From NCBI GenBank assembly GCA_002686085.1, contig NZAC01000006.1, positions 1 through 47,976 of the forward strand: a stretch of DNA of 47,976 nucleotides, written 5' to 3'. Of the stretch, positions 228 through 17,538 are shown one piece after another. Positions within the stretch are counted from its first letter, which is position 1, and the number at the start of each line of letters is the position of its first letter. The notes beneath the pieces are model-generated. The model searched no databases and had not been told where the DNA came from. It was given only the letters and a program-made list of their open reading frames with translations. The translations under genes were made by a program, and so were the position numbers. Source of the DNA: Roseibacillus sp. GTDB taxonomy: Bacteria; Verrucomicrobiota; Verrucomicrobiia; Verrucomicrobiales; Akkermansiaceae.

Positions 228-1775
228 ATGATCAAGAACCCCATTCTTTCTGGTTTCAACCCCGACCCATCAATCTGCCGGGTCGGGCAGGACTACTATA
301 TTGCCACCTCGACCTTCGAGTGGTTCCCGGGGGTCCAGATCCATCACTCCCGCGATCTCGTCAACTGGAGACTACTTGGACACGCTCTCGAGGAGAGCCG
401 GCTGCTCGACCTGCGTGGCGTACCCAGCTCTGGCGGAGTCTGGGCCCCGGCCCTCAGTCACCATGGTGGCCTCTTCTACCTATGCTATACCGTGGTCCAC
501 CAGCATGAAGCTGCCACCAAGGATACTCCCAACTTTCTCACCACCGCTCCCTCTATTGACGGGCCCTGGTCCGACCCGGTATTTATCAACTCCTCAGGAT
601 TTGATCCCTCTCTCTTCCATGATGAAGATGGGCGGAAATATTGGCTCAACATGGTCTGGGACCATCGTGCTGATCACAACCCCTTTCACGGGATCGTCCT
701 GCAGGAATACGACCATCAGGCCGAATCCCTGATCGGGGAACCCCGTATGATTTTCAAGGGGAGCAAGATCGGCCTCACCGAGGGGCCGCATCTCTACCGC
801 CGTAACGGATACTACTACCTTCTCACTGCCGAGGGTGGCACTGAGTATGACCATGCCGTGACACTCGCGCGCTCCCGCACGCTCGATGGACCATACGAGG
901 TGCACCCTGCCAACCCCATCCTCACCTCTTCCGGGCGCGACGATCTCACCCTCCAGAAGGCCGGCCATGCCAGCCTCGTGGAAACCCCCGGCGGCGAATG
1001 GTACATGCCTCATCTCTGCGGCCGCCCCCTGCCTGGGACCCGTCGTTGCAATCTCGGTAGGGAAACCGCGATCCAGCAGGTCGAATGGCGGGATGACGAC
1101 TGGCTCTACCTCGTTGAAGGTGGCAATGCGCCGCACGACGAAGTCAGCCCCCCGCAACTGCCCTCCCACTCGTGGCCTGACCTCCCGGACCGTCTTACCT
1201 TCGACTCCCTCCACTATGCCACTCCCCGGGGTCCTTCCGCCAACGTGATTCGGGACACGGAAAAGCTGGTCCTGCGCGGGTGCGAGTCTCTTGAGTCCAA
1301 TTTCGAGCAGGCCATGCTGGCCCGTCGCCTCACCTTCCAGCAGGCGACAATCACCACCTCCCTCGAGTTTGATCCGACTTCCTTCCAGCAGATGGCGGGC
1401 CTCGCCCTTTACTACAACACCCACCTTTTCCATTACCTCTACCTCTCCCAAGATGAGAACCTTGGACCTTGTCTCCAGATCCACTCCTGCGATGACGGTA
1501 CTTCCAACTTTCCTCTCGGTAAAAATCTCCTACCTGTTCCCCAAGGACCCGTCTACCTGCGAGCGACTCTTGACCATCGTGACCTCCAATTCTCCTACTC
1601 TACCGACGAGGCAAACTTTCACCCCGTAGGGCCGGTTCTCGACGCCTCCCTTCTCTCCGACGACCACGGAGATCACTGGGGCTTCACCGGAACCTTCGTT
1701 GCCTTGTGCTGCCAGGACCTGACTGGCGCCCGACTCGCCGCTGAATTCCACTTTCTCCAGATATCCGCCTCATGA
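228..1775 (+). CDS. GH43 family beta-xylosidase/alpha-L-arabinofuranosidase-type hydrolase
   Basis: This 515-residue protein is a family 43 glycoside hydrolase of the beta-xylosidase (XynB-like) type, expected to release xylose from the non-reducing ends of xylo-oligosaccharides. The N-terminus carries the family start NPILSGFNPDPS, with Asp13 as the likely general base. Asp126 in SGFDPSLF fits the pKa-modulating Asp and Glu185 in TEGPHLY the general acid. The five-bladed propeller fills about residues 1-310. A C-terminal beta-sandwich (about 320-515) is typical of the family and shapes the xylosidase pocket. There is no signal peptide, so it should act in the cytoplasm on imported oligosaccharides. 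Its stop overlaps the start of the sugar transporter (ATGA), which indicates translational coupling. No clear Shine-Dalgarno is visible. The family is firm; xylosidase rather than arabinofuranosidase activity is inferred. Confidence 0.93.
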   Translation: MIKNPILSGFNPDPSICRVGQDYYIATSTFEWFPGVQIHHSRDLVNWRLLGHALEESRLLDLRGVPSSGGVWAPALSHHGGLFYLCYTVVHQHEAATKDTPNFLTTAPSIDGPWSDPVFINSSGFDPSLFHDEDGRKYWLNMVWDHRADHNPFHGIVLQEYDHQAESLIGEPRMIFKGSKIGLTEGPHLYRRNGYYYLLTAEGGTEYDHAVTLARSRTLDGPYEVHPANPILTSSGRDDLTLQKAGHASLVETPGGEWYMPHLCGRPLPGTRRCNLGRETAIQQVEWRDDDWLYLVEGGNAPHDEVSPPQLPSHSWPDLPDRLTFDSLHYATPRGPSANVIRDTEKLVLRGCESLESNFEQAMLARRLTFQQATITTSLEFDPTSFQQMAGLALYYNTHLFHYLYLSQDENLGPCLQIHSCDDGTSNFPLGKNLLPVPQGPVYLRATLDHRDLQFSYSTDEANFHPVGPVLDASLLSDDHGDHWGFTGTFVALCCQDLTGARLAAEFHFLQISAS

Positions 1776-3328
1776 ATCTCCGCTCCTTTTTTATCGCTCT
1801 TACCGTATCGCTCGGAGGGTTTCTCTTCGGATTTGATGCCGGAATTATTTCCGGCGTCATGGAATATGCTGGCCCCTACTTTCAACTGGATGATGTCCAA
1901 ACCGGATGGGCTGTTAGTTGCACGGTCTTTATCGCCATGTTCGCCATGCTCGTGGCAGGAAGGTTAAGCGATACCTTTGGTCGCAAACCTGTCCTCCTCA
2001 CTGTGGCCTTTCTCTACGCGATCTCCGCCATCCTCTCTGCTTTGGCGAGCTCATACGAAATGCTCTATATCGCCCGAATGATTGGCGGGGTCGCCTTTGG
2101 AGCTGCCCTCGTAATCGCTCCCACCTACATCGCAGAAATTGCCGGGGCAAAAGACCGCGGCAAACTTGTATCTATTCAGCAGCTCAACATAGTTTTAGGA
2201 TTCTTTGCAGCCTTTCTCAGCAACTACCTGTTCAACCACCTGACTACAGAAGGAGCAGGGATCTTCTTCCAGTCGGGAAGTTTTGCAGGCGAAACAGTCT
2301 GGCGCTGGATGCTAGGTGTAGAGGCCCTGCCTGCGCTCCTCTATTTTGGCTGCCTTTTTCTTGTTCCGAGAAGTCCCCGCTGGTTACTGGCCAACGGGCG
2401 GGAGACTGAAGGTGAGAGGGTCCTGGCCAAGATCCACGGCACTGAGAACGCCCAGTCCGAGAGCGCGGATATCCGAAAAAGCCTCGCGGAAGAACGCCTT
2501 GTCGCCGGATCCAGAATCTCGGATCTCTTCCTTCCCGCCCTCCGCTTCATCCTTATTGTCGGCATTGTCATCGGCATCCTTCAGCAAGCTACCGGGATCA
2601 ACGCGGTCTATTTCTACGCAACCCAGATCTTCAAGCAGACCGGGGTGGGCGTCGACAATGCCTTCCTGCAAGGCGTGCTTCTCAGTCTCACCTCTGTGGT
2701 CTTCGCTACCATCGCCATTTTGACCATCGACAGAATTGGCCGAAGACCTCTGCTTCTTGTCGGCATCGCGGGAATTGCCATCTGTATGCTGCTCTGTGGG
2801 TTTGGCTTCCAAGGCGCCACTTATCAGCTGACCCCGGAGAAGATTGCGGCTCTGGAGGGAGTTGATCTGGCCAAGCTCTCAGCCGTGGAGAACAAGACCT
2901 TTACCTCCGACGTCGCTTTTAAAAATACCATGAGGGAAGTCCTTGGAACAGAGGCCTACAGCAAACAGGAGGGGGCCATCCTCGAAGCTGCGACCAACAT
3001 GAATGCCACGATCGTGCTGGTGGGCATTCTCGGGTTCATCGCCTGCTTTAATTTCTCCCTTGGTCCAGTAATGTGGGTAATGCTCTCAGAAATGTATCCC
3101 AACCGGATCCGGGGGCTGGCAATCGGTAGTATCGGCCTCATCAACTCCTTCACCGCCTGGATCGTCACCCAGATATTCCCGTGGGAACTATCAAATCTCG
3201 GGGCAGCGCCCTCATTCTTCATCTTCGGCGGGATCGCCCTCGTCGGATTCTTCATTCTCTTCCGCATTCTACCAGAAACCAAGGGCAAGACTCTTGAACA
3301 ATTGGAAGCAGACCTGGTACGGACTTAA
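1772..3328 (+). CDS. Sugar porter family MFS transporter
   Basis: A 518-residue, 12-helix major facilitator transporter of the sugar porter family (XylE/GLUT-like), expected to import a monosaccharide across the inner membrane, probably with protons. The first helix shows LGGFLFGFDAGIISG. The loop 2-3 signature GRLSDTFGRKP is at 63-73, PRSPRWL follows helix 6, the sugar-contact motif QQATGIN opens the second half, and PETKG is at 501-505 near the C-terminus. A hydrophilic insert of about 60 residues (around 350-410, between two late helices) is longer than in minimal sugar porters. It starts within the stop of the GH43 gene and is followed 16 bases later by the secreted multi-hydrolase, so the three probably form one operon. 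Xylose is the best substrate guess from the neighbours, but the sequence alone does not prove it. Confidence 0.93.
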   Translation: MNLRSFFIALTVSLGGFLFGFDAGIISGVMEYAGPYFQLDDVQTGWAVSCTVFIAMFAMLVAGRLSDTFGRKPVLLTVAFLYAISAILSALASSYEMLYIARMIGGVAFGAALVIAPTYIAEIAGAKDRGKLVSIQQLNIVLGFFAAFLSNYLFNHLTTEGAGIFFQSGSFAGETVWRWMLGVEALPALLYFGCLFLVPRSPRWLLANGRETEGERVLAKIHGTENAQSESADIRKSLAEERLVAGSRISDLFLPALRFILIVGIVIGILQQATGINAVYFYATQIFKQTGVGVDNAFLQGVLLSLTSVVFATIAILTIDRIGRRPLLLVGIAGIAICMLLCGFGFQGATYQLTPEKIAALEGVDLAKLSAVENKTFTSDVAFKNTMREVLGTEAYSKQEGAILEAATNMNATIVLVGILGFIACFNFSLGPVMWVMLSEMYPNRIRGLAIGSIGLINSFTAWIVTQIFPWELSNLGAAPSFFIFGGIALVGFFILFRILPETKGKTLEQLEADLVRT

Positions 3329-3344
3329 AAATCACTCCTCATTC

Positions 3345-6300
3345 ATGAAGCACCTTTTCCTCCTTCTTGCCCTCGCGGCGACCACTCTCTCCCTGTCCGC
3401 TACAGGCCAGCAACTTACCGGACGCTTTGCTCCTCCCGCTGGCAAGGTCCTCATCTTCGCAGGACAGGACAATGCCTCAGTCGGGGGCACTGCCAAATAT
3501 CGTAACGGATATATCGAAAACGTTGGGGTCCCGGCCGGGATCACGCACTACGTCTATTTCTCCGAAGGGTGGACCAACAAGTTCAACCGGACCTTCGGCA
3601 AGGGAGTTGCTGGTCTCAACACCGAGACCGAATGGGCCTCCGGCCCCATGCACCAGAAGGCCTACCTTGATTCTCCATCCCTTGACCGCTGCGTCATGCA
3701 CCTCTCCATCTCAATGGAGGGAAACTGTGAGGACAAGGTTGCCGACGGCACCTTTGACCACCTCATCGACGAGCTGGTCACCTTCGTCCGGGACCATCCC
3801 GAGCACCCCTTCCTCATCCGCATCGGCTACGAGTTTGATGGAAATTGGAACGGGTATGACCCCGACAACTTTAAGAAGGCCTTCCGTCGAATCGTAGACG
3901 GCCTGCGCAAGGACAAGCTTCCCAACGTGGCCACCTGCTACGCCTCCTCGAGCATGGCCACCCTTAAGCAGTTCGAGGAATATGATCCCGGGGCCCAGTA
4001 TTACGACTGGGTCGGCTACTCCTGGTGGGGAGGCGATAAGGACGGCGAGGCCGCCCTTGAGTTTGCCCGTCGTCTGCAGAAGCCAGTCTTTATCGCCGAG
4101 GCCACTCCTCGCGGACTCTTTTTTGACAAGGACGACCCGGAAGAGGTCTGGGATACCTGGTTTACAAAGTTTTTCCAACACATCGACGACAATCTCGACG
4201 TAGTCCGGGCCGCCTCCTACATCAATGCGGACTGGGACTCCCAGGAGATGTGGGACGGGTGGGGCCAGTCCAGACTCGAGACTGCTCCCCTCCTGCGGAA
4301 GCGATGGCTGGCGAAAATGGCCGAGGACCAGTTCCTCAATGCCAGTGACAAGCCTTTCGAATTGATCAACTTCCCCTCTCCTTTCGCCCTCCCAACCAAG
4401 CAAATACTACCCTACCGCAACCCCTCGCTTCCTGTCGAGGAGCGGGTAGGAGACCTCTTGGCTCGGATGAACCTCCAGGAAAAAGTCGCACAGATCACTG
4501 GCTGGTGGGATCCCAATGAGGAGAAACTGCGAGAAGAAGGAAAGATCTTCACCCCGGAATTCTACGCCGCGAACTCCCCTCACGGGGTGGGTGAACTCGG
4601 CCCTCTGCACAACCTCACCATCGCTGAGGACGTGAAGCAGTATCGTGCCGTGCAGGACTACTTCCGCCGGCAAACCCGGCTCGGGATTCCTGCCATCCTC
4701 CATGACGAGGCCGCCCACGGGTTCATGCGCTTCGAGGCCAATTCCTTCCCTGCTCCCATTGGTCTTTCCTGCACTTGGAATCCACGCCTTCTGGTCAAAC
4801 TCTACTCCCAAGCTGGCCGAGAGGCCCGCTCCCGTGGCATCTCGCATATCCTCTCCCCGATCGTTGATGTCGCGCGAGACCTTCGCTGGGGCCGCGTGGA
4901 TGAAACCCTTGGTGAAGATCCCTTCCTCGTTTCCCGCCTCGGAGCAGCCATGGTCGAGGGTCTTCAGGGCTCGCGGGACGGCACCATCGCGAAAGGTCAC
5001 GTTGCCGCCACCCTGAAGCATTTCGCCGGCTATGCCGGAACTGACGGAGGCCGGAACCGCTCTCCTTATTCCAACGGACCCCGACACCTTCTGGACGTCG
5101 ATGTGGCGCCTTTCCGTCATGTCATCGACCGCGTCAAGCCTGCTGCTGTGATGGCAGCTTTCAATGAGATCGATGGCCTGCCTTGTCACGTGAATCCGTG
5201 GATTCTGAACGAGGTCCTCCGTGGCCAGCTCGGCTTCGACGGTCTGACCGTGGGAGACTATCAGGGCATTGATCTGGTGCGTAAATACCAGAACATTGGA
5301 TCCTCTGACGCCGACGCGGCCCGCATGGCCCTGAACGCCGGCCTGCAACTTGAGTTGCCCAACCGGTTCGGATACCAGCACCTCCCTCGCCTCTTGCGCG
5401 AGGGGAAGGTCCAGATGGCGCAAATCGACGAGGCCGTCCGGGCGGTTCTCTCCCTCAAGTTTCGCCTCGGACTCTTTGAGGCGCCCTTCGAACTTGATGC
5501 CGAAAACGCTAATGCCTTGGCCCGCTCAGAGGAAGCCACCGAACTTGCCCGCGAGGCTGCGCGACAGTCCATTGTCCTTCTGCGCAACGAGGACAACCTG
5601 CTCCCCCTCGATCGCACCGCCTACAAAACTATCGCAGTCATCGGACCCAATGCTGCCACCTGCCGCCTTGGCTCTTACTCAGGGCGCCCCCTCAAAACCG
5701 TCTCCCTGCTCGAGGGCATCCGCGATCTTGTTGGGGAAAAGATTAAGGTCACCCACGCCGAGGGGTGCAAGATTGCCCTCAACGACACCGGGGACTCTTA
5801 TGCCAACTGGCGCTACGTCAACGAAATCGAATTCGCCACTCTGTCCGACAACGAGGACCTCATCGACGAGGCTATCAAGGTCGCAAGCGAGGCCGATCTC
5901 GTCATCCTCGCTATCGGCGAAAACGTGCTTATGGGTCGAGAGGCCTGGGGAGGTAATCACGTTGGGGATCGCAGTAACCTCGATCTCACTGAGTCCCAGC
6001 AGGCCCTCTCCAGGGCCATCCTCGATACCGGAAAGCCTGTGGTAGCCTTCCTGAACAACGGCAGCCCAATCACTCTTCACGACCTCGGCGAGCAATTTCC
6101 AGCTATTCTGACCGGCCACTACGCCGGACAGGAAACCGGCACCGCAGCCGCTGAAATTCTCTTTGGAGAAACCTCTCCTTCCGGAAAGCTCACCGTGAGC
6201 TGGCCCCGCAGCGTGGGGCACCTTCCCATCCACTACAGCCAGCACGGAAGCTCACAGGTTTTTGACTACGTCGATTCCCCTCGGGGACCGGTCTATCCCT

Positions 6301-9300
6301 TCGGGTATGGCCTTAACTACACGACCTTCGAATACTCCAATCTCACTCTCTCCGCAGAGGAAATCTACCCCGAGGATCTTATCCTCGTGGGATTTGATCT
6401 GACCAATACCGGGAAACGAATCGGCACCGAGATCGCTCAGCTCTATGTCAGCGGACAGGGCTTTCCTCTCGCCCGACCCGGCCTTGAGCTCAAGGGCTTC
6501 CAGCGGATCACGCTCATGCCTGGTGAGACCAAGAGGGTGAGCATCGAGATTTACGCCGAGGACCTTGTCTTCCACGACAGCGCGTTGCAAAGATCCTTCC
6601 CGGCAGGCACCTATCAGGTGCGCGTGGGAGGGTCCTCCACCACTCTGAGCAAGCCTCTTTCTCTGAAGACTATTCCAAGGGCGACAACCGCCAAGATCAC
6701 CGCTCATCCCTCGGGAGCTCACTCGGGATCCGGATCAAAATCCCTCAAGCCCGCCCGAAACACCGCTGCCAAAGAGCCTGCAGCCTCCATCAATTCCGAG
6801 TCCCTCCCAACTGCTCCCAGCGAAGATGTCCCTGCCGGGAAGCGCCCTAACGTTCTTTTCATCGCTATCGATGATCTGCGACCGGAGCTCGGCACCTACG
6901 GAGCCAAGGTCAAGACTCCGAACCTCGATAAGTTCGCCCGGAGTGGCACTCGTTTCGACCGCGCCTACGTCCAGCAAGCCGTCTGCGGAGCCTCCCGTCT
7001 TTCGATTATGACTGGGCTCTACCCCACCCTAACCGGGGAACAAACCTTCCATGTAAGCGGCTGGCGGAAGCGTCATCCCGATGTTCTGACCATGAACCAG
7101 CACTTTGGGCGTCAGGGTTACACCACCGTAGGACTGGGCAAGATCTATCACGGGACAGGAGGTTCCGGAGTCGATGAAGCAAACTGGACTCGCTGGATCA
7201 ACCTCAATGTTCCCGAGTATGCCGACGAGACCAATATCAAGATCCTGAAGGAAGCGTTGGCGCGGAATGAAGTGGGCACAAAAAACGACCCCCCTAAAGG
7301 GCCTACCACCGAATCGGCCGATGTCCCGGACGATACCTATGCGGATGGGCAGCGTGCCAACAGGGCCTGTAAGCTTCTCGAAAACTTTTCGGAGGCTACT
7401 GCCACTCCCTTCTTCCTCGCGGTAGGGCTCACTAAGCCCCACCTTCCCTTCGTTGCTCCCCAGAAATACTGGGATCTCTACGATCGAGAGGACTTCAAAA
7501 TGCCAGCCAACAAGGGCATCCCTCCCGGCTACCCCCTCGATGCTGCCAACCCCAAGGCCTACGAGTTGCATAAGTATAGTGATATCCTCGGCAAGGAACC
7601 GAAGGACTATCCCATGGAGGTGAACCAGCGCCTTCTACACGGTTACGCCGCCTGTGTGAGCTACGCTGATGCCTGCGTGGGAAAAATCCTCACTACTCTC
7701 GAAGAAACCGGACTCGACAAGAACACCATCGTAGTCCTCTGGGGAGACCATGGGTGGAAACTGGGTGACCATGGCTCCTGGTCCAAGCACACCAACTTTG
7801 AATGTGACACCCGTGCTCCACTCATTATCCGGGCCCCCGGCTACGAGGGAGGAACACCATGTCCACGCCTCGTCGAATTCATCGACCTCTATCCGACCCT
7901 CTGTGACCTGACCGGCCTTCCAGTCCCGGCTCACTGCCAGGGGCGCAGCTTCCGCACCCTCCTGGAAGATCCCACCGCGGGCCATCGCTACAATGCCTAC
8001 AGCTCCTATCCATCGTGGAAAGCGCTCGGTCACAGCATCCGCTTCAAAACCTTCCGCTATACCGAATGGCACGCGGAAGAGTCTGATGAGGTGGTCGCCA
8101 GTGTCCTGACAGATCTCTCCAAAGATCCCGGAGAAGTCACCAACGTGGTGAAGGACCCCGCCTTCGCGGAGACTCTCGCAGAGGCCCAGAGTCAGCTCAG
8201 CGAGCGCCTCAAGACTGCTCGGGCACCCGCTCCTCCCAGAAAATTGGGCGGGCGGAAAAAGGCCTCTTCCAGCATTCCTCCCGTGAGAGGAAACACCACT
8301 GCGCTGGTTATCGACCCCGAGCTCGCTCGCCAGAAAATTGACGGCTTCGGAGGTTCTATCGCATTCTGGGGAACCCGGGCAGACGACAAGGCCCTTACCG
8401 CCGCCCTCAAGGAACTGAACACCTCCATTGTCAGGGCTCAGGGAGAAGTGACCAAGAAAGGCGTGGTCGACCATAACCGGGATGTCCTCCAGCGAGCCAT
8501 GAAGATCAACCCAGACCTTCAGGTCCTCCTGAGCTTCTGGCAACCCCGCTCGTCCAAGAACCAGACACTGGATTACTGGCTCCAGACCGTCGAGATCAAC
8601 GGTGGCCCTCAGTATACCCTGCGACCGGAGCGCCGGGCCGAGTGGGCGAACGAAATGGTAGCTCGCGTCCAGCAATATCTCGACTGGGGCATCAACGTCA
8701 CCGCCATCGGAGTCCAAAATGAATCCAACTGGTCACACGAGGGCACTCAAACCTGCCGCTGGGAGCCCGGAGAACTTGCCTCCTTTATCGAGACGCTGGT
8801 CAAGCCTCGCCTTCGAAGGGCTGGTCTGGGCCAGCTCCGCATTGCCGCCCCCGATCTCGCGTTCATTGGTTCCGAGGCCAGTGAGCTAAAGAGCTTTCTC
8901 CCCGCCATCGCCAGTCCAGCCGTCGATATTGCGGCCTATCACATGTATGACAGTTATATTGACGGCGAGACCGGCCCTATCGATTACCTCGTGAAGGCAA
9001 CGAGGGCCATCGCTCCTCTCAAACGGGAGCACTTCCCTGATAAGAGCCTCTGGATGACCGAAACCACCGGAGCCCAGTGGAACGGCGAGCAGTGGCACAC
9101 CTACGGATGGACCCCCGAACTCACCGAGCACCAGAAGGCCATCAAGGCCGCACGCTACCTGCACATGACTCTCGCCGATGCCGGGGCTAACGCCTTCCTC
9201 TGGTGGGGCCTAGTCTATAGCCTCGCTCCCGAGACTGTCACGGACCGCAACACCCGGCAGAAACACCGCGATGAAGGACTCGTCCTCGTCAGCGAAAAAC

Positions 9301-9629
9301 GCGGAGAGAATGGCACCCAGGCCTTTGTTGAGCGAACCAAGAAGTTCTACACCTTTCAGCAGTATTCCAGATTCGTAGAACCAGGCTTTCGACGCCTCGC
9401 TGCCCCCACCAAGGATGGATTACAGATCTCCGCCTACCGCTCTCCCGACCGCTCGAAGGTTGTGGTAGTTGCCATCAATGACACTGCCTCGTCCCATCCT
9501 CTCAAGATTTCTCTGAAGGGAGGAGGAAAAGCCCGGGCTTGGCAGACTGACCAGAAAAGGAACTGTGAAGAGGTCGAGTCCACCGCCGCCATGCCACCTC
9601 TCTCGGTTCGCACCCTTGTGTTTGAGTAG
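3345..9629 (+). CDS. Secreted four-domain polysaccharidase: GH26 - GH3 - sulfatase - GH30
   Basis: One uninterrupted 2094-residue reading frame with a signal peptide (about 1-21, cleavage near SATGQQ) and four complete catalytic modules. Residues 25-345 are GH26-like; Glu163 in GYEFDGNWNG (acid/base) and Glu252 in FIAEATP (nucleophile) fit, and GQD, PAGIT and YINADWDSQ resemble marine beta-1,3-xylanases of this family. Residues 355-1108 are GH3 with a fibronectin-like C-terminus; Asp638 in VGDYQG is the likely nucleophile. Residues 1166-1625 are a sulfatase of iduronate-2-sulfatase type; Cys1214 in CGASR is the formylglycine site, and DD at 1176-1177 and GDHG are metal or active-site motifs. 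Residues 1652-2094 are GH30 with Glu1793 in QNES and Glu1906 in WMTETTG. Ser/Ala/Pro/Lys-rich linkers lie at 1110-1165 and 1625-1650. Start 3345 was chosen because the signal peptide begins there; an in-frame TTG at 3294 would add 17 polar residues inside the transporter gene. Role: extracellular or periplasmic desulfation and depolymerisation of a xylan-like polymer (inferred). Confidence 0.92.
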   Translation: MKHLFLLLALAATTLSLSATGQQLTGRFAPPAGKVLIFAGQDNASVGGTAKYRNGYIENVGVPAGITHYVYFSEGWTNKFNRTFGKGVAGLNTETEWASGPMHQKAYLDSPSLDRCVMHLSISMEGNCEDKVADGTFDHLIDELVTFVRDHPEHPFLIRIGYEFDGNWNGYDPDNFKKAFRRIVDGLRKDKLPNVATCYASSSMATLKQFEEYDPGAQYYDWVGYSWWGGDKDGEAALEFARRLQKPVFIAEATPRGLFFDKDDPEEVWDTWFTKFFQHIDDNLDVVRAASYINADWDSQEMWDGWGQSRLETAPLLRKRWLAKMAEDQFLNASDKPFELINFPSPFALPTKQILPYRNPSLPVEERVGDLLARMNLQEKVAQITGWWDPNEEKLREEGKIFTPEFYAANSPHGVGELGPLHNLTIAEDVKQYRAVQDYFRRQTRLGIPAILHDEAAHGFMRFEANSFPAPIGLSCTWNPRLLVKLYSQAGREARSRGISHILSPIVDVARDLRWGRVDETLGEDPFLVSRLGAAMVEGLQGSRDGTIAKGHVAATLKHFAGYAGTDGGRNRSPYSNGPRHLLDVDVAPFRHVIDRVKPAAVMAAFNEIDGLPCHVNPWILNEVLRGQLGFDGLTVGDYQGIDLVRKYQNIGSSDADAARMALNAGLQLELPNRFGYQHLPRLLREGKVQMAQIDEAVRAVLSLKFRLGLFEAPFELDAENANALARSEEATELAREAARQSIVLLRNEDNLLPLDRTAYKTIAVIGPNAATCRLGSYSGRPLKTVSLLEGIRDLVGEKIKVTHAEGCKIALNDTGDSYANWRYVNEIEFATLSDNEDLIDEAIKVASEADLVILAIGENVLMGREAWGGNHVGDRSNLDLTESQQALSRAILDTGKPVVAFLNNGSPITLHDLGEQFPAILTGHYAGQETGTAAAEILFGETSPSGKLTVSWPRSVGHLPIHYSQHGSSQVFDYVDSPRGPVYPFGYGLNYTTFEYSNLTLSAEEIYPEDLILVGFDLTNTGKRIGTEIAQLYVSGQGFPLARPGLELKGFQRITLMPGETKRVSIEIYAEDLVFHDSALQRSFPAGTYQVRVGGSSTTLSKPLSLKTIPRATTAKITAHPSGAHSGSGSKSLKPARNTAAKEPAASINSESLPTAPSEDVPAGKRPNVLFIAIDDLRPELGTYGAKVKTPNLDKFARSGTRFDRAYVQQAVCGASRLSIMTGLYPTLTGEQTFHVSGWRKRHPDVLTMNQHFGRQGYTTVGLGKIYHGTGGSGVDEANWTRWINLNVPEYADETNIKILKEALARNEVGTKNDPPKGPTTESADVPDDTYADGQRANRACKLLENFSEATATPFFLAVGLTKPHLPFVAPQKYWDLYDREDFKMPANKGIPPGYPLDAANPKAYELHKYSDILGKEPKDYPMEVNQRLLHGYAACVSYADACVGKILTTLEETGLDKNTIVVLWGDHGWKLGDHGSWSKHTNFECDTRAPLIIRAPGYEGGTPCPRLVEFIDLYPTLCDLTGLPVPAHCQGRSFRTLLEDPTAGHRYNAYSSYPSWKALGHSIRFKTFRYTEWHAEESDEVVASVLTDLSKDPGEVTNVVKDPAFAETLAEAQSQLSERLKTARAPAPPRKLGGRKKASSSIPPVRGNTTALVIDPELARQKIDGFGGSIAFWGTRADDKALTAALKELNTSIVRAQGEVTKKGVVDHNRDVLQRAMKINPDLQVLLSFWQPRSSKNQTLDYWLQTVEINGGPQYTLRPERRAEWANEMVARVQQYLDWGINVTAIGVQNESNWSHEGTQTCRWEPGELASFIETLVKPRLRRAGLGQLRIAAPDLAFIGSEASELKSFLPAIASPAVDIAAYHMYDSYIDGETGPIDYLVKATRAIAPLKREHFPDKSLWMTETTGAQWNGEQWHTYGWTPELTEHQKAIKAARYLHMTLADAGANAFLWWGLVYSLAPETVTDRNTRQKHRDEGLVLVSEKRGENGTQAFVERTKKFYTFQQYSRFVEPGFRRLAAPTKDGLQISAYRSPDRSKVVVVAINDTASSHPLKISLKGGGKARAWQTDQKRNCEEVESTAAMPPLSVRTLVFE

Positions 9630-9659
9630 AGCGGAAGAAAGCCCCGCTATCAGAAAAAT

Positions 9660-10463
9660 CTAAATCGCGCACCCGGGAAGGGGCCGCCCAGGACGGAGGT
9701 CCACGTAGTCCGAATCGCTGCCACCTCCTTCCCCGCGCACGAGATAAACCGGCACCCAATGCTCCTCGGTATTCACCGTAACCGTCCGGGCATTGGCATA
9801 ACGCATGGTATAGGCCGCTCGACGTCGGTTACTGGTATTAGGCTCACTTCCATGAAGGACATAGGAATCGTGAATCGACAAACTCCCCGCCCGCATCTCG
9901 AGCGGAATGGCGGCAGCTACCATGTCAGGAGTCACTTCCACGGTAAGCCCGAGAAGATCATTTTCCCCGGTCGAAACCTTATCCATCTCAGGATATCCCT
10001 CATGGGTAGATGGGATCACCTGCATACACCCATTAGCTAGATCCGCATCGTCCAAAGCGAGCCAGACCGTTCCCACATCCGTTCCCTGGACCGAGTGCCA
10101 GTAGGTATTGTCCTGATGCCACGCCACCGGCAACCCATCTCCCGGCCGCTTAGAGATCACATGAGACATGATCAGAATAAGGTCCGGCCCGAGAACTGCT
10201 TCCACCGCGTCGAGGATCCGAGGATGACGACAGAGCTCCAGCCAGGCGTTATTACTGGCATGAGGCTCGGTGAGATATTCGGGTCGCGCCGGGACCTCCT
10301 CATTCTTTCCATCCTTATAGATGACCATGGTGTCCGGCATGTTCCGCACGAGAGAATCCAGCTCGGCATTGAGCCTCAGGACCTCCTCAGGATCGAGGAC
10401 TTCGCGAAAAAGGCAGTAGCCAGCCGCCTTATAATCCACCGCGTTGGTATTGGGCCCATTCAT
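9660..10463 (-). CDS. Phytanoyl-CoA dioxygenase (PhyH) family protein
   Basis: A 267-residue Fe(II)/2-oxoglutarate-dependent oxygenase of the PhyH family. The iron facial triad is visible: His116 and Asp118 in AWHQDNTYW and His204 in DSYVLHGSEPN. The RRR cluster just after it (about 215-217) could supply the 2-oxoglutarate carboxylate contact. There is no signal peptide, so it should be cytoplasmic. It lies 105 bases downstream of the DUF1552 gene on the same strand and is probably the last gene of that transcript. It converges on the fusion hydrolase gene, with 30 bases between the stop codons. Homologues in Planctomycetota and Verrucomicrobiota are numerous and mostly of unknown substrate. 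Hydroxylation of a small molecule is the expected chemistry; the substrate is not deducible. Confidence 0.9.
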   Translation of the reverse strand: MNGPNTNAVDYKAAGYCLFREVLDPEEVLRLNAELDSLVRNMPDTMVIYKDGKNEEVPARPEYLTEPHASNNAWLELCRHPRILDAVEAVLGPDLILIMSHVISKRPGDGLPVAWHQDNTYWHSVQGTDVGTVWLALDDADLANGCMQVIPSTHEGYPEMDKVSTGENDLLGLTVEVTPDMVAAAIPLEMRAGSLSIHDSYVLHGSEPNTSNRRRAAYTMRYANARTVTVNTEEHWVPVYLVRGEGGGSDSDYVDLRPGRPLPGCAI

Positions 10464-10568
10464 CGTTGTTCAACGAAATCAAATTTCAGGTTCTCTTCGC
10501 GGGGAGCTTCACCACGTGTTTACTTTCCGATCCGGGCCGATCGAGCGCCATCCAAGCTCAGCCCCCGT

Positions 10569-11909
10569 TCAAATAATCAGCCCGTCAAGCGCTCCCGTAC
10601 TGTCAGCAAAGGAATCCGCCTTCACTCCCATCTGCTGCTGGATAGTCACAAACACGTTAGAGAATGGGGTCTTACTGTCGCATTTTAAGTACTGGCCGTG
10701 CCGGTAGCCCATCTTGTTCCCTCCGGCAAGAATCAGCGGATAGTTGGTGTTGTTGTGGGTCTTGCTGTTGCTGCTGCCGTAAAGAATGCAGGTATTGTCC
10801 AGCACGGACCCATCTCCCTCTTCAAACTCACTGAGTCTTTTCATCAGATAAGCGAGGCATTCAGCCTGATAACGGTCCCACTTTCCCTTGGCTTCGGCTC
10901 CCTTCCCTTTGCCCGCCCCATGAGCCAACCCGTGGGCATCCTTGTTGAAACCCAGGAGCGACGGGAACTTGTTCGCGATAGAGATTGCCCCGTGCATGCT
11001 CGCCAACTGATAGGTCACGAAGCGGGTCGAGTCGGTCTGAAATGCGAGGGCAATCAGGTCCAGCATGGTATGAATGAGCTTCCCCGGAGTCTCGTTGTCC
11101 GCATCAAGGCTAAGCCCCTCCGCATTGACCTTGGGACGGGGGACATTCAGCCATTGCGCGGAGCGCTCCACGTCCTGCTCGATCTCACGCACTGAGGTTA
11201 GATACTGATCCAGCTTTCCCTGATCTGTTCTGCCCAGTTTACGATGCAGGGTCCTCGCCTCTTCAAGAAGCAGATCAAGGTGGCTTCCGGTCCGGGTGAG
11301 CCCCTTTCTCTGGGCCTCGATGGAGTCGCCATTCAACCCAAAGAGACGTTCAAAGACAACGGCAGGCCGGTTCAGGGAAGGAATCGGCTGACCGCTACTG
11401 GAGTAGGAGAGCGTATTCGCCCTGGTAGGCATGCCGACCCCTCCATCCGAGGAGAGCACCAAGCTGCTGAAGCGAGTACTCGCACCCAGTCTATGCCTTT
11501 GCGCCATGAACTGATCCAAGGAAATGGAGTTCTTCAAACCCGTTGCAGACAGGCTCAACTCCTCCCCGGTCAGGAAGGTATCACCACTGTCATGACCTCC
11601 GATTCTGCGGACCTTGGGGTGGGAGAGCCCTCCAAGAACCGTGACATGATCACGGAACGGCTCCAGCACCTCAAGGGACTTGTTAAAGGTAAAGTCCTGG
11701 CCCGATCCGTTCGGAAACCAGTTCCACTCCCCGAACTCTCCCCCCTGCTTGGGCAGGCTCACTCCGTAGGGAAAATAAATGGAACAGAACCTTCTTGGAG
11801 GCACCTTCGACTTGGGACCCCCTAGAGACTCCATCCAAGGCAGCGCCATGGAGATCCCGGCGGCCTTTAGCATCGTCCTGCGGTTCATGTAGTGGGCGCT
11901 CTTACTCAT
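10569..11909 (-). CDS. DUF1552 domain-containing secreted protein
   Basis: A 446-residue protein of the DUF1552 family, found widely in Planctomycetota and Verrucomicrobiota next to DUF1592-type cytochrome-like proteins. The N-terminus MSKSAHYMNRRTMLKAAGIS carries a twin-arginine-like NRRTMLK followed by a short hydrophobic stretch and ALPWMESLGG, so Tat export is likely. Inner family features include FCSIYFPYGVS, TVLGGLSHPKVR, GGHDSGDTFLTGE, STRFVTYQLAS and NTCILYGSSNSKTHNNTNYPLILAGG; the general layout recalls DUF1501/alkaline-phosphatase-like proteins. Start 11909 was chosen over an upstream in-frame codon at 12017 because the latter lies inside the preceding gene and would bury the export signal. 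It follows the DUF1592 gene by 43 bases. No enzymatic activity is established for the family. Confidence 0.9.
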   Translation of the reverse strand: MSKSAHYMNRRTMLKAAGISMALPWMESLGGPKSKVPPRRFCSIYFPYGVSLPKQGGEFGEWNWFPNGSGQDFTFNKSLEVLEPFRDHVTVLGGLSHPKVRRIGGHDSGDTFLTGEELSLSATGLKNSISLDQFMAQRHRLGASTRFSSLVLSSDGGVGMPTRANTLSYSSSGQPIPSLNRPAVVFERLFGLNGDSIEAQRKGLTRTGSHLDLLLEEARTLHRKLGRTDQGKLDQYLTSVREIEQDVERSAQWLNVPRPKVNAEGLSLDADNETPGKLIHTMLDLIALAFQTDSTRFVTYQLASMHGAISIANKFPSLLGFNKDAHGLAHGAGKGKGAEAKGKWDRYQAECLAYLMKRLSEFEEGDGSVLDNTCILYGSSNSKTHNNTNYPLILAGGNKMGYRHGQYLKCDSKTPFSNVFVTIQQQMGVKADSFADSTGALDGLII

Positions 11910-11952
11910 CAGTTTCTCCCGTTCCTTGTCACTATAGCAGTTACCCCCGCCC

Positions 11953-14367
11953 CTATCGCGATAAAAAAGGCTCACTGCTGGCAATGCGGGCCATGAGGGA
12001 GGGCAACCGGTAGCCATCCCGGGCGAACTCCCGGCTCAATTCCTCGATCAAAGGCGCATCCTCCAGCATGGCACTTCGCCCCAAGGCGTAGACATACAAC
12101 TTGGTCACGAGGGCCCGGGTAAATTGTGCACGCCTCTCCGTAAGCATGTGGTCCTGCAGATCTGCCAGTCCCGCAACCTGGTGATTCCCAGGCAGGACAG
12201 TCGTGGTCGAGACCGCTTTCCGGCCCCGAGCGGTCTTCTCTCTTGGCAATCCGATCGCATCGAACCGTTCGAGGGCGATACCCCATGGGTCGATGCTGCG
12301 GTGGCAGTCCGCACAGGCTTCCTTTTTCCGGTGGAGCTCCATCTGCTCCCGGACCGGAAGCTTCTCAAAACCGCCGATACTTTCCTCAAGGGTTGGAACA
12401 TCGGGCGGAGGAGGATTGGGAGGATCATTCAGGAGGTGCTCCCTGATCCAGACCGCGCGCTTGATCGGATGGGAGTCCACTCCATCAGATCCGGCGAGAT
12501 GCACGGAAGCATGGCCCAGTAAGCCCCCCGGGCGACTTGTTCCCTCAAGAGGCACCCTCTCGAAGGCCTGAGATCGAGGTCCCTCCAACCCGTAATGTTT
12601 GGCCAAGCGGGCATTAAGCATGGTGAAGTCCGCATCGAGAAACTGCAGAGCCGAGGTGTTGCTCCGCAGAATTTCCCGAAAGAAAGCCTGGGTTTCCCGG
12701 ACCATCTCGGGCTTGAGGGAATTATCGAAATTCCGGTAATACTGTGGGTTGATGGCCACCCGGTCTACTCCATCCAGATCAAGCCATTGGCTGCTGAATT
12801 GCTCGGCGAAGCGATCCGCCTTCTCGTCTCCGAGCAAACGGTTGAACTCGCTCTGGAGCACCTCAGGAACCAGCAACTCTCCGGAATCGGCAAGGGAAGA
12901 AAGAGCCTCATCCGGGAGGGAGCTCCACAGGAAATAAGAAAGACGAGCGGCCAACTCATGAGCATTCAGCCTCCGCCGCTTCTCCAAGGATGAGGGCTCA
13001 GTGAGGTAAAGAAAATGAGAGGAGGACAGGACGGCCGACAGGGTCTCCTGGAGAGCCTCCACCGGATGGCCTGATTCCTTCCGCATCAACTCGTAGTGCC
13101 TGAGCCACTTCGCCAGTTCCATATCCTGCACGGGCCGTCGCCAAGCTCGTCGCAGAAAGCGTCCCAGAATAACCCGGAGAGCCTTTGGATCCTCCACGTC
13201 TTCCCCCTCCCGTATGATCCTGCGGTGCAGGGGTGGCGGCCAGGAGGCATAGTCGTTCCGTATGATCTCCACTGACTCAATGATAATGCGCGGAAAATCC
13301 GGGTCCTCAGGGAAGAACTTGACCTTCTTCTTCCTCACCTTCCCCTTCTTGTCCTTCTCCTCAATGACCTCCGTCACCTCCTTGGGCCGAGGTTCCCCGT
13401 CATCGAGAACATTCTGGAGCGTAATGACCCCATTAAGTTTGCCACCCGGAACATCGGCCTCCGGAAGGGGAAGAAACTCGGATCTCAGAGGAATATCGTA
13501 ATATTTCGGCGTTCTCGAGGAAACCTCGATTTCACCGGCATCATCCATGATGTTCAGGGTCAGACCCGAGACGAAATACCCATACCGAGCAAAGAGGATC
13601 GGGGCAGGCTGTCCTGGTTTCCGGTCGGTCGAGGCCTTCACCCGGATGGTGAATTGTCCCCGGCGCGGTGGATCCTTGAACGAACCATACCAGAAGTTCA
13701 CCCGGCCCAGGCGCTCGGAGGAGTTTCCAGCATAGCGCCGACGATTAGGCCCCCTGATCCCTTGCTTGTTTCTCTCCACCGGAGAAACACTGCGTTCCGG
13801 TGGGTCGCCTTCCACCAGGATAAGGTCGAGAGCTTTCCGGGCTGTCTTGAGATAGTTCTCGATCTGCAGGGCAGTCATACCGAGGGACGCCCCGTTGTTT
13901 TTGAAGCCCTCTGGAGAACGGGCATCGGAAGGAAGGCTTTCCCCATAATTCATCTCCAAGCCCAGCAAGTCGGTCATGGTATGCTGATACTCGGTCCGGT
14001 TCAACCGACGCATTACCACCTGCTTACCGGTATTCTTGCGGACCTCCGCTGCCCGGCGCAACTCCTTCGTTAACCAGTCAACGAGCACTCGACGATCCCC
14101 GGCAGGTAAGGGGGGAGCTTTCTCCGGGGGCATCTCGCCCCGGTTGATTACATCGAGGGCATCGTGCCAAGTCTCGCCGGCATTACCGTGAACCATGTCC
14201 GGGTCGAGCGAATCGAACCGGAGGTCTCCCTTCTGCTTTTCGGGGCCGTGGCAGGAAAAACAATGCTTCCGCAACACGGGTTGCACCTCGTTTTCAAAAA
14301 CTGTATCGCCCGTGGCACCCGAGGACAGGAGAGCAAGAAGAATACCGCTATGTCGCAGGGTGATCAT
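11953..14367 (-). CDS. DUF1592/DUF1588/DUF1587/DUF1585 (planctomycete cytochrome-like) protein
   Basis: An 804-residue exported protein with a signal peptide (about 1-20) followed by a cytochrome-c-like module holding C36-F-S-C-H40. The middle follows the usual order of DUF1587 (around RLNRTEYQHTMTDLLG), DUF1595, DUF1592 (RLSYFLWSSLPDEAL) and DUF1588 (GLLGHASV to HPIKRAVWIREHLL). It ends in DUF1585 with a second CxxCH at 685-689 (CADCHRSIDPWG). Both CxxCH motifs could bind haem c, which would place the protein in the periplasm as an electron carrier or redox enzyme; this has not been shown for the family. Its ATG overlaps the stop of the upstream LamG-like gene by 4 bases, and the DUF1552 partner follows 43 bases downstream. 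DUF1592-DUF1552 pairs recur in these phyla and are likely a functional couple. A lysine-rich insert (EEKDKKGKVRKKKVK) in the middle is unusual. Confidence 0.92.
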   Translation of the reverse strand: MITLRHSGILLALLSSGATGDTVFENEVQPVLRKHCFSCHGPEKQKGDLRFDSLDPDMVHGNAGETWHDALDVINRGEMPPEKAPPLPAGDRRVLVDWLTKELRRAAEVRKNTGKQVVMRRLNRTEYQHTMTDLLGLEMNYGESLPSDARSPEGFKNNGASLGMTALQIENYLKTARKALDLILVEGDPPERSVSPVERNKQGIRGPNRRRYAGNSSERLGRVNFWYGSFKDPPRRGQFTIRVKASTDRKPGQPAPILFARYGYFVSGLTLNIMDDAGEIEVSSRTPKYYDIPLRSEFLPLPEADVPGGKLNGVITLQNVLDDGEPRPKEVTEVIEEKDKKGKVRKKKVKFFPEDPDFPRIIIESVEIIRNDYASWPPPLHRRIIREGEDVEDPKALRVILGRFLRRAWRRPVQDMELAKWLRHYELMRKESGHPVEALQETLSAVLSSSHFLYLTEPSSLEKRRRLNAHELAARLSYFLWSSLPDEALSSLADSGELLVPEVLQSEFNRLLGDEKADRFAEQFSSQWLDLDGVDRVAINPQYYRNFDNSLKPEMVRETQAFFREILRSNTSALQFLDADFTMLNARLAKHYGLEGPRSQAFERVPLEGTSRPGGLLGHASVHLAGSDGVDSHPIKRAVWIREHLLNDPPNPPPPDVPTLEESIGGFEKLPVREQMELHRKKEACADCHRSIDPWGIALERFDAIGLPREKTARGRKAVSTTTVLPGNHQVAGLADLQDHMLTERRAQFTRALVTKLYVYALGRSAMLEDAPLIEELSREFARDGYRLPSLMARIASSEPFLSR

Positions 14368-15689
14368 GGATTTGCTTTCTCTCGGGCAAAAACTATCTCG
14401 AGCTCTCTGGCCTCTTCCATCACTACCTCTTTCTCTTTCCTTACCGCCTCCGCGACCGCTCTCGTCGCCAGTTTAAAATTCGGTGTATTTGCGACCTTCG
14501 AACGCGCCAACCTGCTCTCCGAAAGAAGCTCCTGATCACTCTTCTCCAGATGCGGATAGCGGGACCGCATCTTCCTCTCCATGATCTCTCGATTCGCTGT
14601 CACCAGCTGGAGAGCAGTGGTCTCCTTCGACTTTTCCCGGGCCTCTGCCAGAGCGGCGTGGTAGCGGGCTTCTGGCAAGTCCTTGAGCCCGGGGTGCAGG
14701 AGATGCAGGAGTTCCACCTCCGAGCGCTTGAGCTTGTTGATCCCATTTCTGAGGGCAAGGTATGCTGAATCCTCCGCGATCAACCGCTTGCTCTCCAACG
14801 CAATCTTCTTCCGCCGTTCCTTCACCGCTCTGAACACCTCCGGAAACTTCCGCGCAGCGGCTAACTTGCGCTCTTCTGTCTGGGCCACCAGATCACGGAA
14901 TACCGCACTCTCCCGGTAGAGCTGATCCCTCGCAATGATTTCCCTGATCTTCTGCTGCTCTCCCGGTTCGTGCGGAAGCCAAGGACGCCTCGCCTGAAGT
15001 TCCTCAAGCTTCCTAAAGCTGTCCTCCCACCCTTCCACTCTGCCAGTGGCAGAGGCTAGAACAACGTCATCAAATGCCGCTCCCGGCCGATCAACCTGAA
15101 AGGCGAAGTAGTCCCGCTCCCGGTCCAGAATGGGGTGACTCCCAACCACCATATGATTCTCGTCTCCTACCCGGACAAGAATCTCCTCCCCGAAAATCTC
15201 GATCATCACCTGATAAAACCGATGCCGCTCAAACTGATGGGCACACTCTCCATGGATAGTCGGAAAATGGGGAACGGTCTGATCCCGGGCCGTTGTGACG
15301 CGGAAGCCATGAGGCCAGAGAAGCACCACCGCGTTATATTTCCCGGGAGTGCCGGTCATAATTCGAATCTCCTCCGCCCCCTGGAAGGCCACTTTGAGCT
15401 CAATAATGCAGTCCCCATATCGCGGCTTCTTGACGAAGACCCGCTTGTTTTCTCCCGGTATCCCAGCCCGCATCAAAGCGCCTTGAGCCACGGTCCACTG
15501 CTCCCTGAAGAACCAGCGAGCAGGCACGTCCTCAAGACTCTCGAAATCATCCGCGAGGAGAACCTGACCCCGCTGGCAGAGCTGAGGCTCAAGGCCTGCC
15601 CTCAAGCATCCCGAAGACAGCATCAGCAAGATCCCCGTAGTCAAGGCTACCTGGCGTCTGGATCCAAATCTGACTGGATTGGCCCTCAT
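14364..15689 (-). CDS. Secreted LamG/DUF1080-like protein with long coiled-coil C-terminus
   Basis: A 441-residue protein not recognised as a named family. An N-terminal signal (basic region then TTGILLMLSSGCLRAG) may end at Cys of SSGCL, which could be a lipobox-like site, so a lipoprotein is possible. Residues about 45-220 read as a concanavalin-type beta-sandwich (VLLADDFESLEDVPARWF, IRIMTGTPGKYNAVVLLW, HRFYQVMIEI, FDDVVLASA), as in DUF1080/LamG modules. Residues about 230-440 are highly charged, rich in E, K, R and L and almost free of Gly/Pro, which suggests long helices or a coiled coil. ATG at 15689 was preferred over the adjacent GTG at 15692 because GAGGA lies 7 bases upstream of it. 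It is the first gene of the minus-strand operon with the DUF1592 and DUF1552 genes. A scaffold or substrate-binding role is speculative. Confidence 0.8.
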   Translation of the reverse strand: MRANPVRFGSRRQVALTTGILLMLSSGCLRAGLEPQLCQRGQVLLADDFESLEDVPARWFFREQWTVAQGALMRAGIPGENKRVFVKKPRYGDCIIELKVAFQGAEEIRIMTGTPGKYNAVVLLWPHGFRVTTARDQTVPHFPTIHGECAHQFERHRFYQVMIEIFGEEILVRVGDENHMVVGSHPILDRERDYFAFQVDRPGAAFDDVVLASATGRVEGWEDSFRKLEELQARRPWLPHEPGEQQKIREIIARDQLYRESAVFRDLVAQTEERKLAAARKFPEVFRAVKERRKKIALESKRLIAEDSAYLALRNGINKLKRSEVELLHLLHPGLKDLPEARYHAALAEAREKSKETTALQLVTANREIMERKMRSRYPHLEKSDQELLSESRLARSKVANTPNFKLATRAVAEAVRKEKEVVMEEARELEIVFAREKANP

Positions 15690-15894
15690 CACTACTTCCT
15701 CATCACTTCCAAGCTGGCTCTCTTCCGGGGCACGTCACTTCATCCCTCCTTCGAGTTTTATCGGGCCAGAACCCACGAGACGTAAAGCAGGTGTAATGGG
15801 TTTCACTGAACAGTTCTACAAAAGCCCACGGGGTAAAGGAAAGCCCCCTTATCAGCAATTCCCCATCGGTCCGGCACAAACTCTGAGGTGAGAG

Positions 15895-17538
15895 ATGACA
15901 AGCCTGCGTAATTCCCCCAGCATCCGGGGGATGTCGATTGATTCTGCTGGTCCAGAGAAAGAGAAACGATCCGGTTGGCTCGACTGGATCGAGCGGGTGG
16001 GCAACCGCCTGCCCCACCCCATGACCCTCTTCATCGCCGGGACGGTCCTGATCCTGGTCCTGTCGCAGGTCGCAGACGTCGGAAACTGGTCCGCCGAGAA
16101 AACCGTGATGAAACTCAATGCCGAGGGAGTCAAGGTCAGGACGGTGGAGACCGTCACCGCTACCGGCCTGCTCGCCGGGGACGGAGCCTTCTGGGCCATC
16201 AAGAACATGGTAAAGAATTTCACCGAATTCGCCCCACTCGGGGTCGTCCTGGTCGGCATGCTCGGAATCGGGGTAGCGGAACGGAGCGGAGCCATTGGAG
16301 CCCTGCTCAAGGTTTGCATGCTGATTACCCCCGCACGCCTGCTGACCCCTTCCATGATCGTGATCGGGATCATGTCCTCCATGGCCCTCGACGCTGGTTA
16401 CGTGGTCCTTCCCCCAATTGCGGCAGCCCTCTACAAGTCAGTTGGTCGCTCCCCCCTGGTGGGACTTGCCGCCGTCTTTGTGGGCGTGTCGGCAGGCTTC
16501 AGCGCCAATCTCTTCATCACCGGACTGGATCCACTGCTGGCAGGCCTGAGTACAGAGGGAGCCCAGATCCTCGAAGCCGATCGCGATCCAGTAGCCCCCA
16601 CCGCCAACTGGTGGTTCATGATTGTCTCCACCTTCCTTCTCACCCTTGTCGGATGGGGAGTAACCGCCTGGTTTGTGGAACCACGCTACGCCCGGAACAG
16701 TCCGGATCAGGGCGGACCCACACCCCTTACCGAGGAGGACCTCCTGGCTCGCAAAATCACCCCCGGGGAACGCCGGGGCCTGAAGGCCGCCGGGGCGGTC
16801 TTCACCGTCTTTTTCGTCCTGCTCCTCCTTATGATCAACCCGGGAGGTCATCTTCCCTATGACCCTCCCCTCGCCGGTAATGACGGCCCCTTCCCGCGCT
16901 GGGTCGCCGCTATCGTCCCCCTGCTCTTCTTCTGCTTCCTGCTGCCGGGGCTGGCCTACGGGATCGCGGCCGGGGAAATCAAGCGCGACCACGACGTAGC
17001 CCACATGATGGGTAAGACCATGGCCGATATGGGTCCGTATATCGTCCTGGCCTTCTTCGCTGCCCAGTTCGTAGCCTACTTCAAGCACTCAAACCTCGGG
17101 GAGATGATGGCCCTTGCTGGTGGCCAGGCCCTGGCCTCCGCCTCCTTCCCGCCCTGGGCCCTCATCGCGGCCTTCATCCTCCTCGTCATGGTCGCCAACA
17201 TGTTCATCGGGTCAGCCTCGGCCAAGTATTCCTTCTTTGCCCCGGTCTTTATTCCCATGTTCATAACCGGAGCCTCCATCAGCCCGGAACTGACCCAGGC
17301 TGCCTACCGCGTCGGGGACTCCTGCAGTAACATCATCACCCCGCTGAACCCCTACATGGTAATCATCCTGGTCTTCATGCAGAAGTATATGCCCAAGGGT
17401 GGCATCGGGACCCTCATCGCCCTCATGCTTCCCTATGCACTCGTCTTTGCGGTGGTGTGGACCGGCCTGTTGATCTTCTGGATGTCCACCGGATTTGAGC
17501 TCGGGCCAGAGGGCCCGCTCTGGCACGGTCAACCGTGA
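15895..17538 (+). CDS. AbgT family transporter
   Basis: A 547-residue inner-membrane protein of the AbgT (p-aminobenzoyl-glutamate transporter) family. The family opening WLDWIERVGNRLPHP is followed by a first membrane span (MTLFIAGTVLILVLSQVA). Later come GVVLVGMLGIGVAERSGAIGALLK, MALDAGYVVLPPIAAALYKSVGRSPL and GVSAGFSANLFITGLDPLLAGLSTEGA, then the C-terminal DSCSNIITPLNPYMVIIL. About 11-13 spans and two re-entrant hairpins are expected. Family members import aminobenzoyl-glutamate or export sulfonamides. The next gene encodes a DUF885 metallopeptidase-like protein, which fits uptake followed by hydrolysis of a peptide-like substrate. Start 15895 has a Shine-Dalgarno (GAGGTG, 4 bases upstream of AGATG); an internal ATG at 15931 lacks one. 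It is divergent from the coiled-coil gene across about 205 bases. Confidence 0.93.
   Translation: MTSLRNSPSIRGMSIDSAGPEKEKRSGWLDWIERVGNRLPHPMTLFIAGTVLILVLSQVADVGNWSAEKTVMKLNAEGVKVRTVETVTATGLLAGDGAFWAIKNMVKNFTEFAPLGVVLVGMLGIGVAERSGAIGALLKVCMLITPARLLTPSMIVIGIMSSMALDAGYVVLPPIAAALYKSVGRSPLVGLAAVFVGVSAGFSANLFITGLDPLLAGLSTEGAQILEADRDPVAPTANWWFMIVSTFLLTLVGWGVTAWFVEPRYARNSPDQGGPTPLTEEDLLARKITPGERRGLKAAGAVFTVFFVLLLLMINPGGHLPYDPPLAGNDGPFPRWVAAIVPLLFFCFLLPGLAYGIAAGEIKRDHDVAHMMGKTMADMGPYIVLAFFAAQFVAYFKHSNLGEMMALAGGQALASASFPPWALIAAFILLVMVANMFIGSASAKYSFFAPVFIPMFITGASISPELTQAAYRVGDSCSNIITPLNPYMVIILVFMQKYMPKGGIGTLIALMLPYALVFAVVWTGLLIFWMSTGFELGPEGPLWHGQP

Follow-up and report, generated by a model that had tools for sequence, protein, structure and literature searches.

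A single exported chain with GH26, GH3, sulfatase and GH30 modules in Roseibacillus, putatively directed at sulfated algal xylan

The 47,976-nucleotide stretch of Roseibacillus sp. DNA analysed in this work (hereafter, the window) harbors a gene whose 2094-residue product, one exported chain, would carry every activity needed for the saccharification of a sulfated algal xylan with beta-1,3 linkages, probably one of the mixed-linkage beta-1,3/1,4 type; from the sequence comparisons and structure models described below, we assign this reading a probability of about 0.65. The gene is a single open reading frame on the forward strand, running from an ATG at position 3345 to a stop codon at 9627-9629 with no internal stop, and its product embeds, in this order, a signal peptide, a GH26, a GH3, an S1 sulfatase, and a GH30 module. 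The initial annotation had proposed four intact catalytic modules in one signal-peptide chain; the open frame and the Pfam, phmmer, and model evidence collected for each module agree with this, and the six key residues that it listed (E163, E252, D638, C1214, E1793, and E1906) are all present. The gene, its modules, and its two upstream neighbors are the following:

228..1775, forward strand: GH43 beta-xylosidase with a GH43_C2 domain and no evident signal peptide (cytoplasmic); Pfam PF04616, E 4e-103, and PF17851, E 6e-44.
1772..3328, forward strand: MFS sugar transporter (Sugar_tr); Pfam PF00083, E 1.8e-104.
3345..3407, forward strand: signal peptide region, residues 1-21, MKHLFLLLALAATTLSLSATG, read from the translation; no lipobox cysteine.
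3408..4379, forward strand: GH26 module, residues 22-345, of the predicted beta-1,3-xylanase/MLXase type; catalytic Glu163 and Glu252 (phmmer, model, invariant Glu).
4413..6647, forward strand: GH3 module with an Fn3-like end, residues 357-1101; nucleophile Asp638, candidate acid/base Glu866 (Pfam, 5Z87/7ZB3, model).
6648..6833, forward strand: GH3-sulfatase linker, residues 1102-1163, rich in Ala, Ser, Pro, and Lys; low identity among relatives.
6834..8219, forward strand: S1 sulfatase module, residues 1164-1625; formylglycine Cys1214 in CGASR, with D1176, D1177, K1266, H1269, H1366, D1468, H1469, and K1481 (6HHM, human IDS alignment).
8220..8336, forward strand: sulfatase-GH30 linker, residues 1626-1664; low identity among relatives.
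8337..9629, forward strand: GH30 module, residues 1665-2094, and stop codon; Glu1793 and Glu1906 (phmmer, model, invariant Glu).

The Pfam scan of the protein retrieved GH3 N (E 4e-62), GH3 C (E 4e-53), an Fn3-like domain, a sulfatase domain (E 1e-38), and SGSH_C; for GH30 there was a weak Glyco_hydro_30C match (E 4e-4) that fell short of the model's cut-off, and at E 0.001 the scan returned no GH26 model. Since Pfam is weak or silent on the two outer modules, these were secured by other evidence, including phmmer searches against solved structures and two AlphaFold2 models built from shallow alignments of the related loci (mean pLDDT 80 and 73). The GH26 module matched the beta-1,3-xylanase XYL4 (2DDX, E 1.8e-31) and the mixed-linkage xylanase AlXyn26A (7XJR, E 2e-25), the scores to both xylanase types being similar. 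Its model has a (beta/alpha)8 fold close to that of XYL4 (against 2DDX, Z 36.9 and rmsd 1.9 A over 294 residues), and E163 and E252, invariant in 26 sequences, align to the XYL4 catalytic Glu pair. According to the matches and the model, the module is assigned to the algal beta-1,3-xylanase/mixed-linkage xylanase branch; this, in turn, points to red- or green-algal xylan as the substrate, in line with the xylan-type substrate predicted in the initial annotation. Vibrio XYL4 and Algibacter AlXyn26A resemble the module in fold and in both catalytic Glu residues, at about 30% identity; unlike the window protein, they are not described in the accessible reports as fused to a GH3, a sulfatase, or a GH30.

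The GH3 module matched 5Z87 and 7ZB3 at E about 1e-144 (model against 5Z87, Z 42.6) and possesses the N and C domains and the nucleophile Asp of the GH3 family. Both the sequence and the model place it close to a Thermotoga beta-xylosidase; the closest structure, 5Z87, is named a beta-glucosidase, which counts against the xylan reading. Asp638 is kept in all the intact homologues except for L099, and the absence of the GH3 nucleophile motif from the latter suggests that not every module is needed everywhere. Concerning GH30, the phmmer matches among solved structures are mostly xylanases (7N6H, E 6.8e-18). The modelled fold, a (beta/alpha)8 barrel with a side beta-domain, is that of the family and compares well with XynC (3kl3; Z 39.8, rmsd 2.4, 365 residues) and AcXbh30A (Z 36.9), the structures nearest to the model belonging to subfamilies 8 and 10, and E1793 and E1906 are invariant in 16 sequences. 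The GH30 family embraces many specificities, which counts against a firm xylan assignment.

Several stretches of the sulfatase part were modelled with low pLDDT, and the role of this module is assigned from sequence. In the VIA-align comparison of the sulfatase-plus-GH30 model, the listed matches are taken up by GH30 and say nothing on the sulfatase; the top Foldseek match of this model was 6HHM (1.7e-30). The same structure, the S1_7 ulvan sulfatase FA22070, is the closest by sequence (E 6e-85), and residues 1164-1625 can be described as S1_7-like by this nearest structure. The alignment to human IDS (iduronate-2-sulfatase) revealed that D1176, D1177, C1214, R1218, K1266, H1269, H1366, D1468, H1469, and K1481 are conserved; the aligned human residues are those that we take to be metal or sulfate ligands, and the set is invariant in 16 homologues. 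CGASR at position 1214 fits the CxA/PxR motif of formylglycine (FGly)-type S1 sulfatases. Ulvan being the substrate of the nearest sulfatase of known structure, a sugar other than xylose may carry the sulfate. The need for a formylglycine-generating enzyme (FGE), also put forward in the initial annotation, is answered by the same genome, which encodes a canonical FGE (263 bits) with the GGSHLCHHTYCLRYR active-site motif, its Cys pair, and an apparent signal peptide; no anSME was retrieved from the genome above the cut-off. The simplest reading is that the sulfatase would be matured outside the cytoplasm by this O2-dependent enzyme.

The signal peptide predicts an exported protein. The Pfam scan of the protein recognised neither a dockerin nor a cohesin, the marks of a cellulosome component, nor any CBM or surface-sorting domain; with a signal peptide and no recognised domain of the latter two kinds, a periplasmic location is as possible as the action on particles outside the cell envisaged in the initial annotation. 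The MFS gene starts within the last 4 bases of the GH43 gene, and 16 bases separate its end from the fusion gene, so that the three genes are likely to be transcribed together. A GH43 gene occurs at 36 of the 46 related loci; in L050, the fusion has as its neighbor an XylR-like regulator (AraC HTH plus periplasmic-binding domain); and the window genome harbors a xylose isomerase gene (xylA).

According to these data, we can depict the following possible scenario. The exported FGE would oxidise Cys1214 to formylglycine before the chain folds, either in the course of Sec export or once it is completed. GH26 would then cut the backbone at or beside beta-1,3 linkages and GH30 the beta-1,4 stretches, the S1_7-like sulfatase would strip the sulfate groups blocking either of them, and GH3 would free xylose from the non-reducing ends. 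The MFS transporter encoded next to the fusion would import xylose and short xylo-oligosaccharides; in the cytoplasm, GH43 would finish the oligosaccharides, and xylose isomerase would feed central metabolism. The flexible linkers would hold the four sites together at a fixed 1:1:1:1 stoichiometry, which would limit the loss of products by diffusion.

We considered whether a chain of this kind might be an artefact of assembly or gene calling, fusing adjacent genes. When a public genome collection was scanned with each species represented by one genome, 46 loci were retrieved, including 16 further complete GH26-GH3-sulfatase-GH30 ORFs (2042-2240 residues) in independent Verrucomicrobiota and Planctomycetota assemblies, with 53-97% identity to the window per module. 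The misassembly, missed stop, or frameshift that the initial annotation had envisaged is contradicted by the independent assemblies. Among the three genomes of the same genus carrying the gene, Roseibacillus NP58 has a complete protein of 2094 residues with the same layout and 95% identity, and the copies of UBA5689 and UBA4145, both cut by contig ends, reach residue 1722 (inside GH30) and residue 466, respectively. Contig ends truncate 15 of the 46 loci; where enough sequence is left, the module order is the same. On the other hand, the fusion-bearing relatives are all draft records labelled MAG, and false joins do occur: L082, apparently a five-module fusion with GH43, was ruled out as such and left out of the 16, its join running through N gaps. 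Since 16 other complete ORFs, obtained by independent projects, show the same junctions (two of them, L070 and L089, bear isolate names that we presume to be typical of single-cell genomes) and the frame has no stop, we regard an artefact as extremely improbable; the recurrence of the same chain in many related ocean bacteria indicates a real, inherited tool. Two other records were set aside: L076, seemingly a GH26-GH3-only protein, ends a few bases from the contig end, in what is presumably adapter-derived sequence, and L087, seemingly a two-gene version, consists of two ORFs overlapping within GH3, for which a frameshift is the simplest explanation.

The chain might also be only a precursor, its linkers being cut by host or ambient proteases to release four free enzymes, so that the fusion would provide co-expression and co-export with no coupling. 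The linkers are indeed long, of low complexity, and fast-drifting: between the window and NP58, the four modules show dN 0.015-0.020 and dS 0.26-0.45 (dN/dS about 0.04-0.06), and the two long linkers have higher values (dN 0.10-0.14; dN/dS 0.23 and 0.34). In the complete tetramodular relatives outside the genus, identity falls to 12-34% for the GH3-sulfatase linker (20-125 residues) and to 7-22% for the sulfatase-GH30 one. The modules are thus under strong purifying selection, and the linkers drift. However, the modules are joined in 17 genomes of two phyla and are co-diverging (Mantel r 0.71-0.88 among the module distance matrices of the 17 complete proteins, each P 0.001), which implies that they mostly travelled together; moreover, operons already supply co-expression, and no processing site was identified. 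We therefore consider a mere precursor unlikely. The same four enzymes could instead be directed at another sulfated, xylose-bearing polymer (ulvan with Xyl2S/Rha3S, a xylogalactan, or a heteroglycan), with the sulfatase acting on a sugar other than xylose. The structure that the sulfatase matches best, that of an ulvan sulfatase, speaks for this, as does the presence of beta-xylose and Xyl2S in ulvan (PMC8511951). Nevertheless, no ulvan lyase, GH78, GH88, or GH105 is present among the families of the scanned locus proteins, the characterised GH26 enzymes of the XYL4/AlXyn26A branch cut consecutive xylose residues (PMC12706835), and a GH10 xylanase stands where sulfatase-GH30 would be in L080, and another is found together with GH26 and GH3 in L088. 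This alternative thus appears quite improbable, and sulfated, beta-1,3-containing xylan is retained as the probable substrate.

The carriers include Akkermansiaceae (Roseibacillus), Opitutia, and other Verrucomicrobiota, as well as the planctomycetotal Pirellulaceae, Mariniblastus, Rubripirellula, and Rhodopirellula. The spread is patchy: in the family of the window, 5 out of 195 genomes have a close GH26, and in a second family of the order 3 out of 75 do (a decayed copy included); a search of plasmid records gave no match spanning 80% of the query. In the trees, the sequences of Planctomycetota and Verrucomicrobiota are partly intermixed (Mariniblastus L093, for instance, lies beside the window group), which, with moderate support, suggests a transfer between the phyla. 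Partial forms also exist. In L088 (Lentisphaerota), GH43, the transporter, GH26, and GH3 are separate genes, with the GH10 gene on the opposite strand; L081 has GH26-GH3 only, and L078 and L079 likewise stop after GH3; in L080, GH26-GH3-GH10 form one ORF. The four-module form can accordingly be read, with no order of change implied, as composed of two parts, GH26-GH3 and a sulfatase-GH30 block, with GH10 as another possible partner of the former. A further scenario, which we put forward tentatively and hold to be somewhat less than an even chance, is that of a covalent, single-chain "xylanosome" for sulfated mixed-linkage xylan. It would have been assembled through successive fusions in marine PVC bacteria and later passed on whole between Planctomycetota and Verrucomicrobiota, and the physical tethering of one exo-type and two endo-type enzymes to a sulfatase would itself be under selection, as a means to channel or retain sulfated intermediates, perhaps in the periplasm.

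The initial annotation had regarded the architecture as very unusual. This holds for the number of catalytic modules; the joining of a sulfatase to a glycoside hydrolase is documented in PVC bacteria and Flavobacteria (PMC6388578, PMC4807772, PMC6794258, PMC8511951), and the exact architecture recurs in many marine genomes. P36 of Formosa agariphila, an S1_25 sulfatase-GH78 rhamnosidase, likewise fuses a sulfatase and a hydrolase for consecutive steps on a sulfated algal polymer, but it has two modules of other families, acts on ulvan, and belongs to Bacteroidota (PMC8511951). The S1_7 sulfatase-GH10 and -GH32 fusions of Kiritimatiellales, with similar genes in Polaribacter and Planctomycetes, join a sulfatase to a xylanase-type or other hydrolase, as here; the accessible text of these reports describes no GH26-GH3-sulfatase-GH30 chain (PMC6388578, PMC4807772, PMC6794258). 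In one of them, 34 and 21 sulfatase genes of two Porphyra-associated planctomycetes were judged multi-domain by length (PMC4807772). The predicted sulfated-xylan PULs of bloom Bacteroidetes comprise a sulfatase-GH10 fusion, GH3, sulfatases, GH30, and GH43 (PMC6794258); this matching inventory, in separate or pairwise fused genes (PMC6794258, PMC6298971), speaks for the sulfated-xylan reading. The beta-1,3-xylan utilisation locus of Vibrio sp. EA2 shares the GH26, GH3, GH43, and xylose isomerase logic and differs in having separate genes, an ABC importer, an intracellular GH3, and no sulfatase in the pathway described (PMC12125979). In the literature retrieved by a search with little subscription coverage, no GH26-GH3-sulfatase-GH30 protein with four catalytic modules is described as recurring across the PVC group, nor is any such protein described at all; two-module fusions being already known, the four-module version is apparently new.

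The use of sulfated xylan in plankton blooms has so far been inferred from gene clusters, with no defined enzyme set. The fusion chain would gather the proposed steps in one cloneable gene and names a likely backbone, a beta-1,3-containing xylan. It also poses a clean question on maturation, that is, how FGE acts on a sulfatase sitting third in an export substrate of about 230 kDa, and its natural variants (split genes, GH26-GH3-GH10, four-module, and decayed forms) are available for asking why enzymes fuse.

The following loci carried related ORFs (coordinates within each locus):
2588-9538, locus L082: apparent GH43-GH26-GH3-sulfatase-GH30 ORF
9935-16060, locus L099: four-module homologue (locus L051 holds the same gene)
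5520-10190, locus L052 (genome G556, same order as the window organism): GH26-GH3-GH30 ORF, 1557 aa
9812-14464, locus L080 (Pirellulaceae): single GH26-GH3-GH10 ORF, 1551 aa

The comparison of the L052 ORF with the window protein revealed that the sulfatase module is absent, that the residues corresponding to E163, E252, D638, and E1793 are all replaced or deleted, and that the E1906 equivalent is Asp; the reading frame is still open despite these losses, and the product is apparently a multi-module pseudoenzyme. No second copy decayed in this way was found among 34 genomes of the genus to which G556 belongs, two of which (G588 and G652) harbor the four-module form. L052 and L099 cluster together in both the GH3 and GH30 trees (0.975-0.977). 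In L099, the GH3 nucleophile motif GDYQG is changed to SEDHA, suggesting that this module may be inactive; the remaining modules appear intact.

The L080 chain represents an alternative fusion of three enzymes. The five-module reading of L082 was dropped because the ORF passes through N gaps, representing a scaffolding artefact, and this locus was excluded from the architecture counts.

The window also encodes two other large proteins:
26830-32331, minus strand: 1833 aa, internally repetitive; it contains bacterial TSP3 repeats and matches PA14 weakly
38314-43296, plus strand: 1660 aa, with lamin-tail, laminin-G, CotH kinase, and chitobiase C-terminal domains

Lastly, probing the whole genome G000 with the entire four-module protein retrieved 159 matches. 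Almost all fall in the sulfatase module, which indicates that this genome is very rich in sulfatases.
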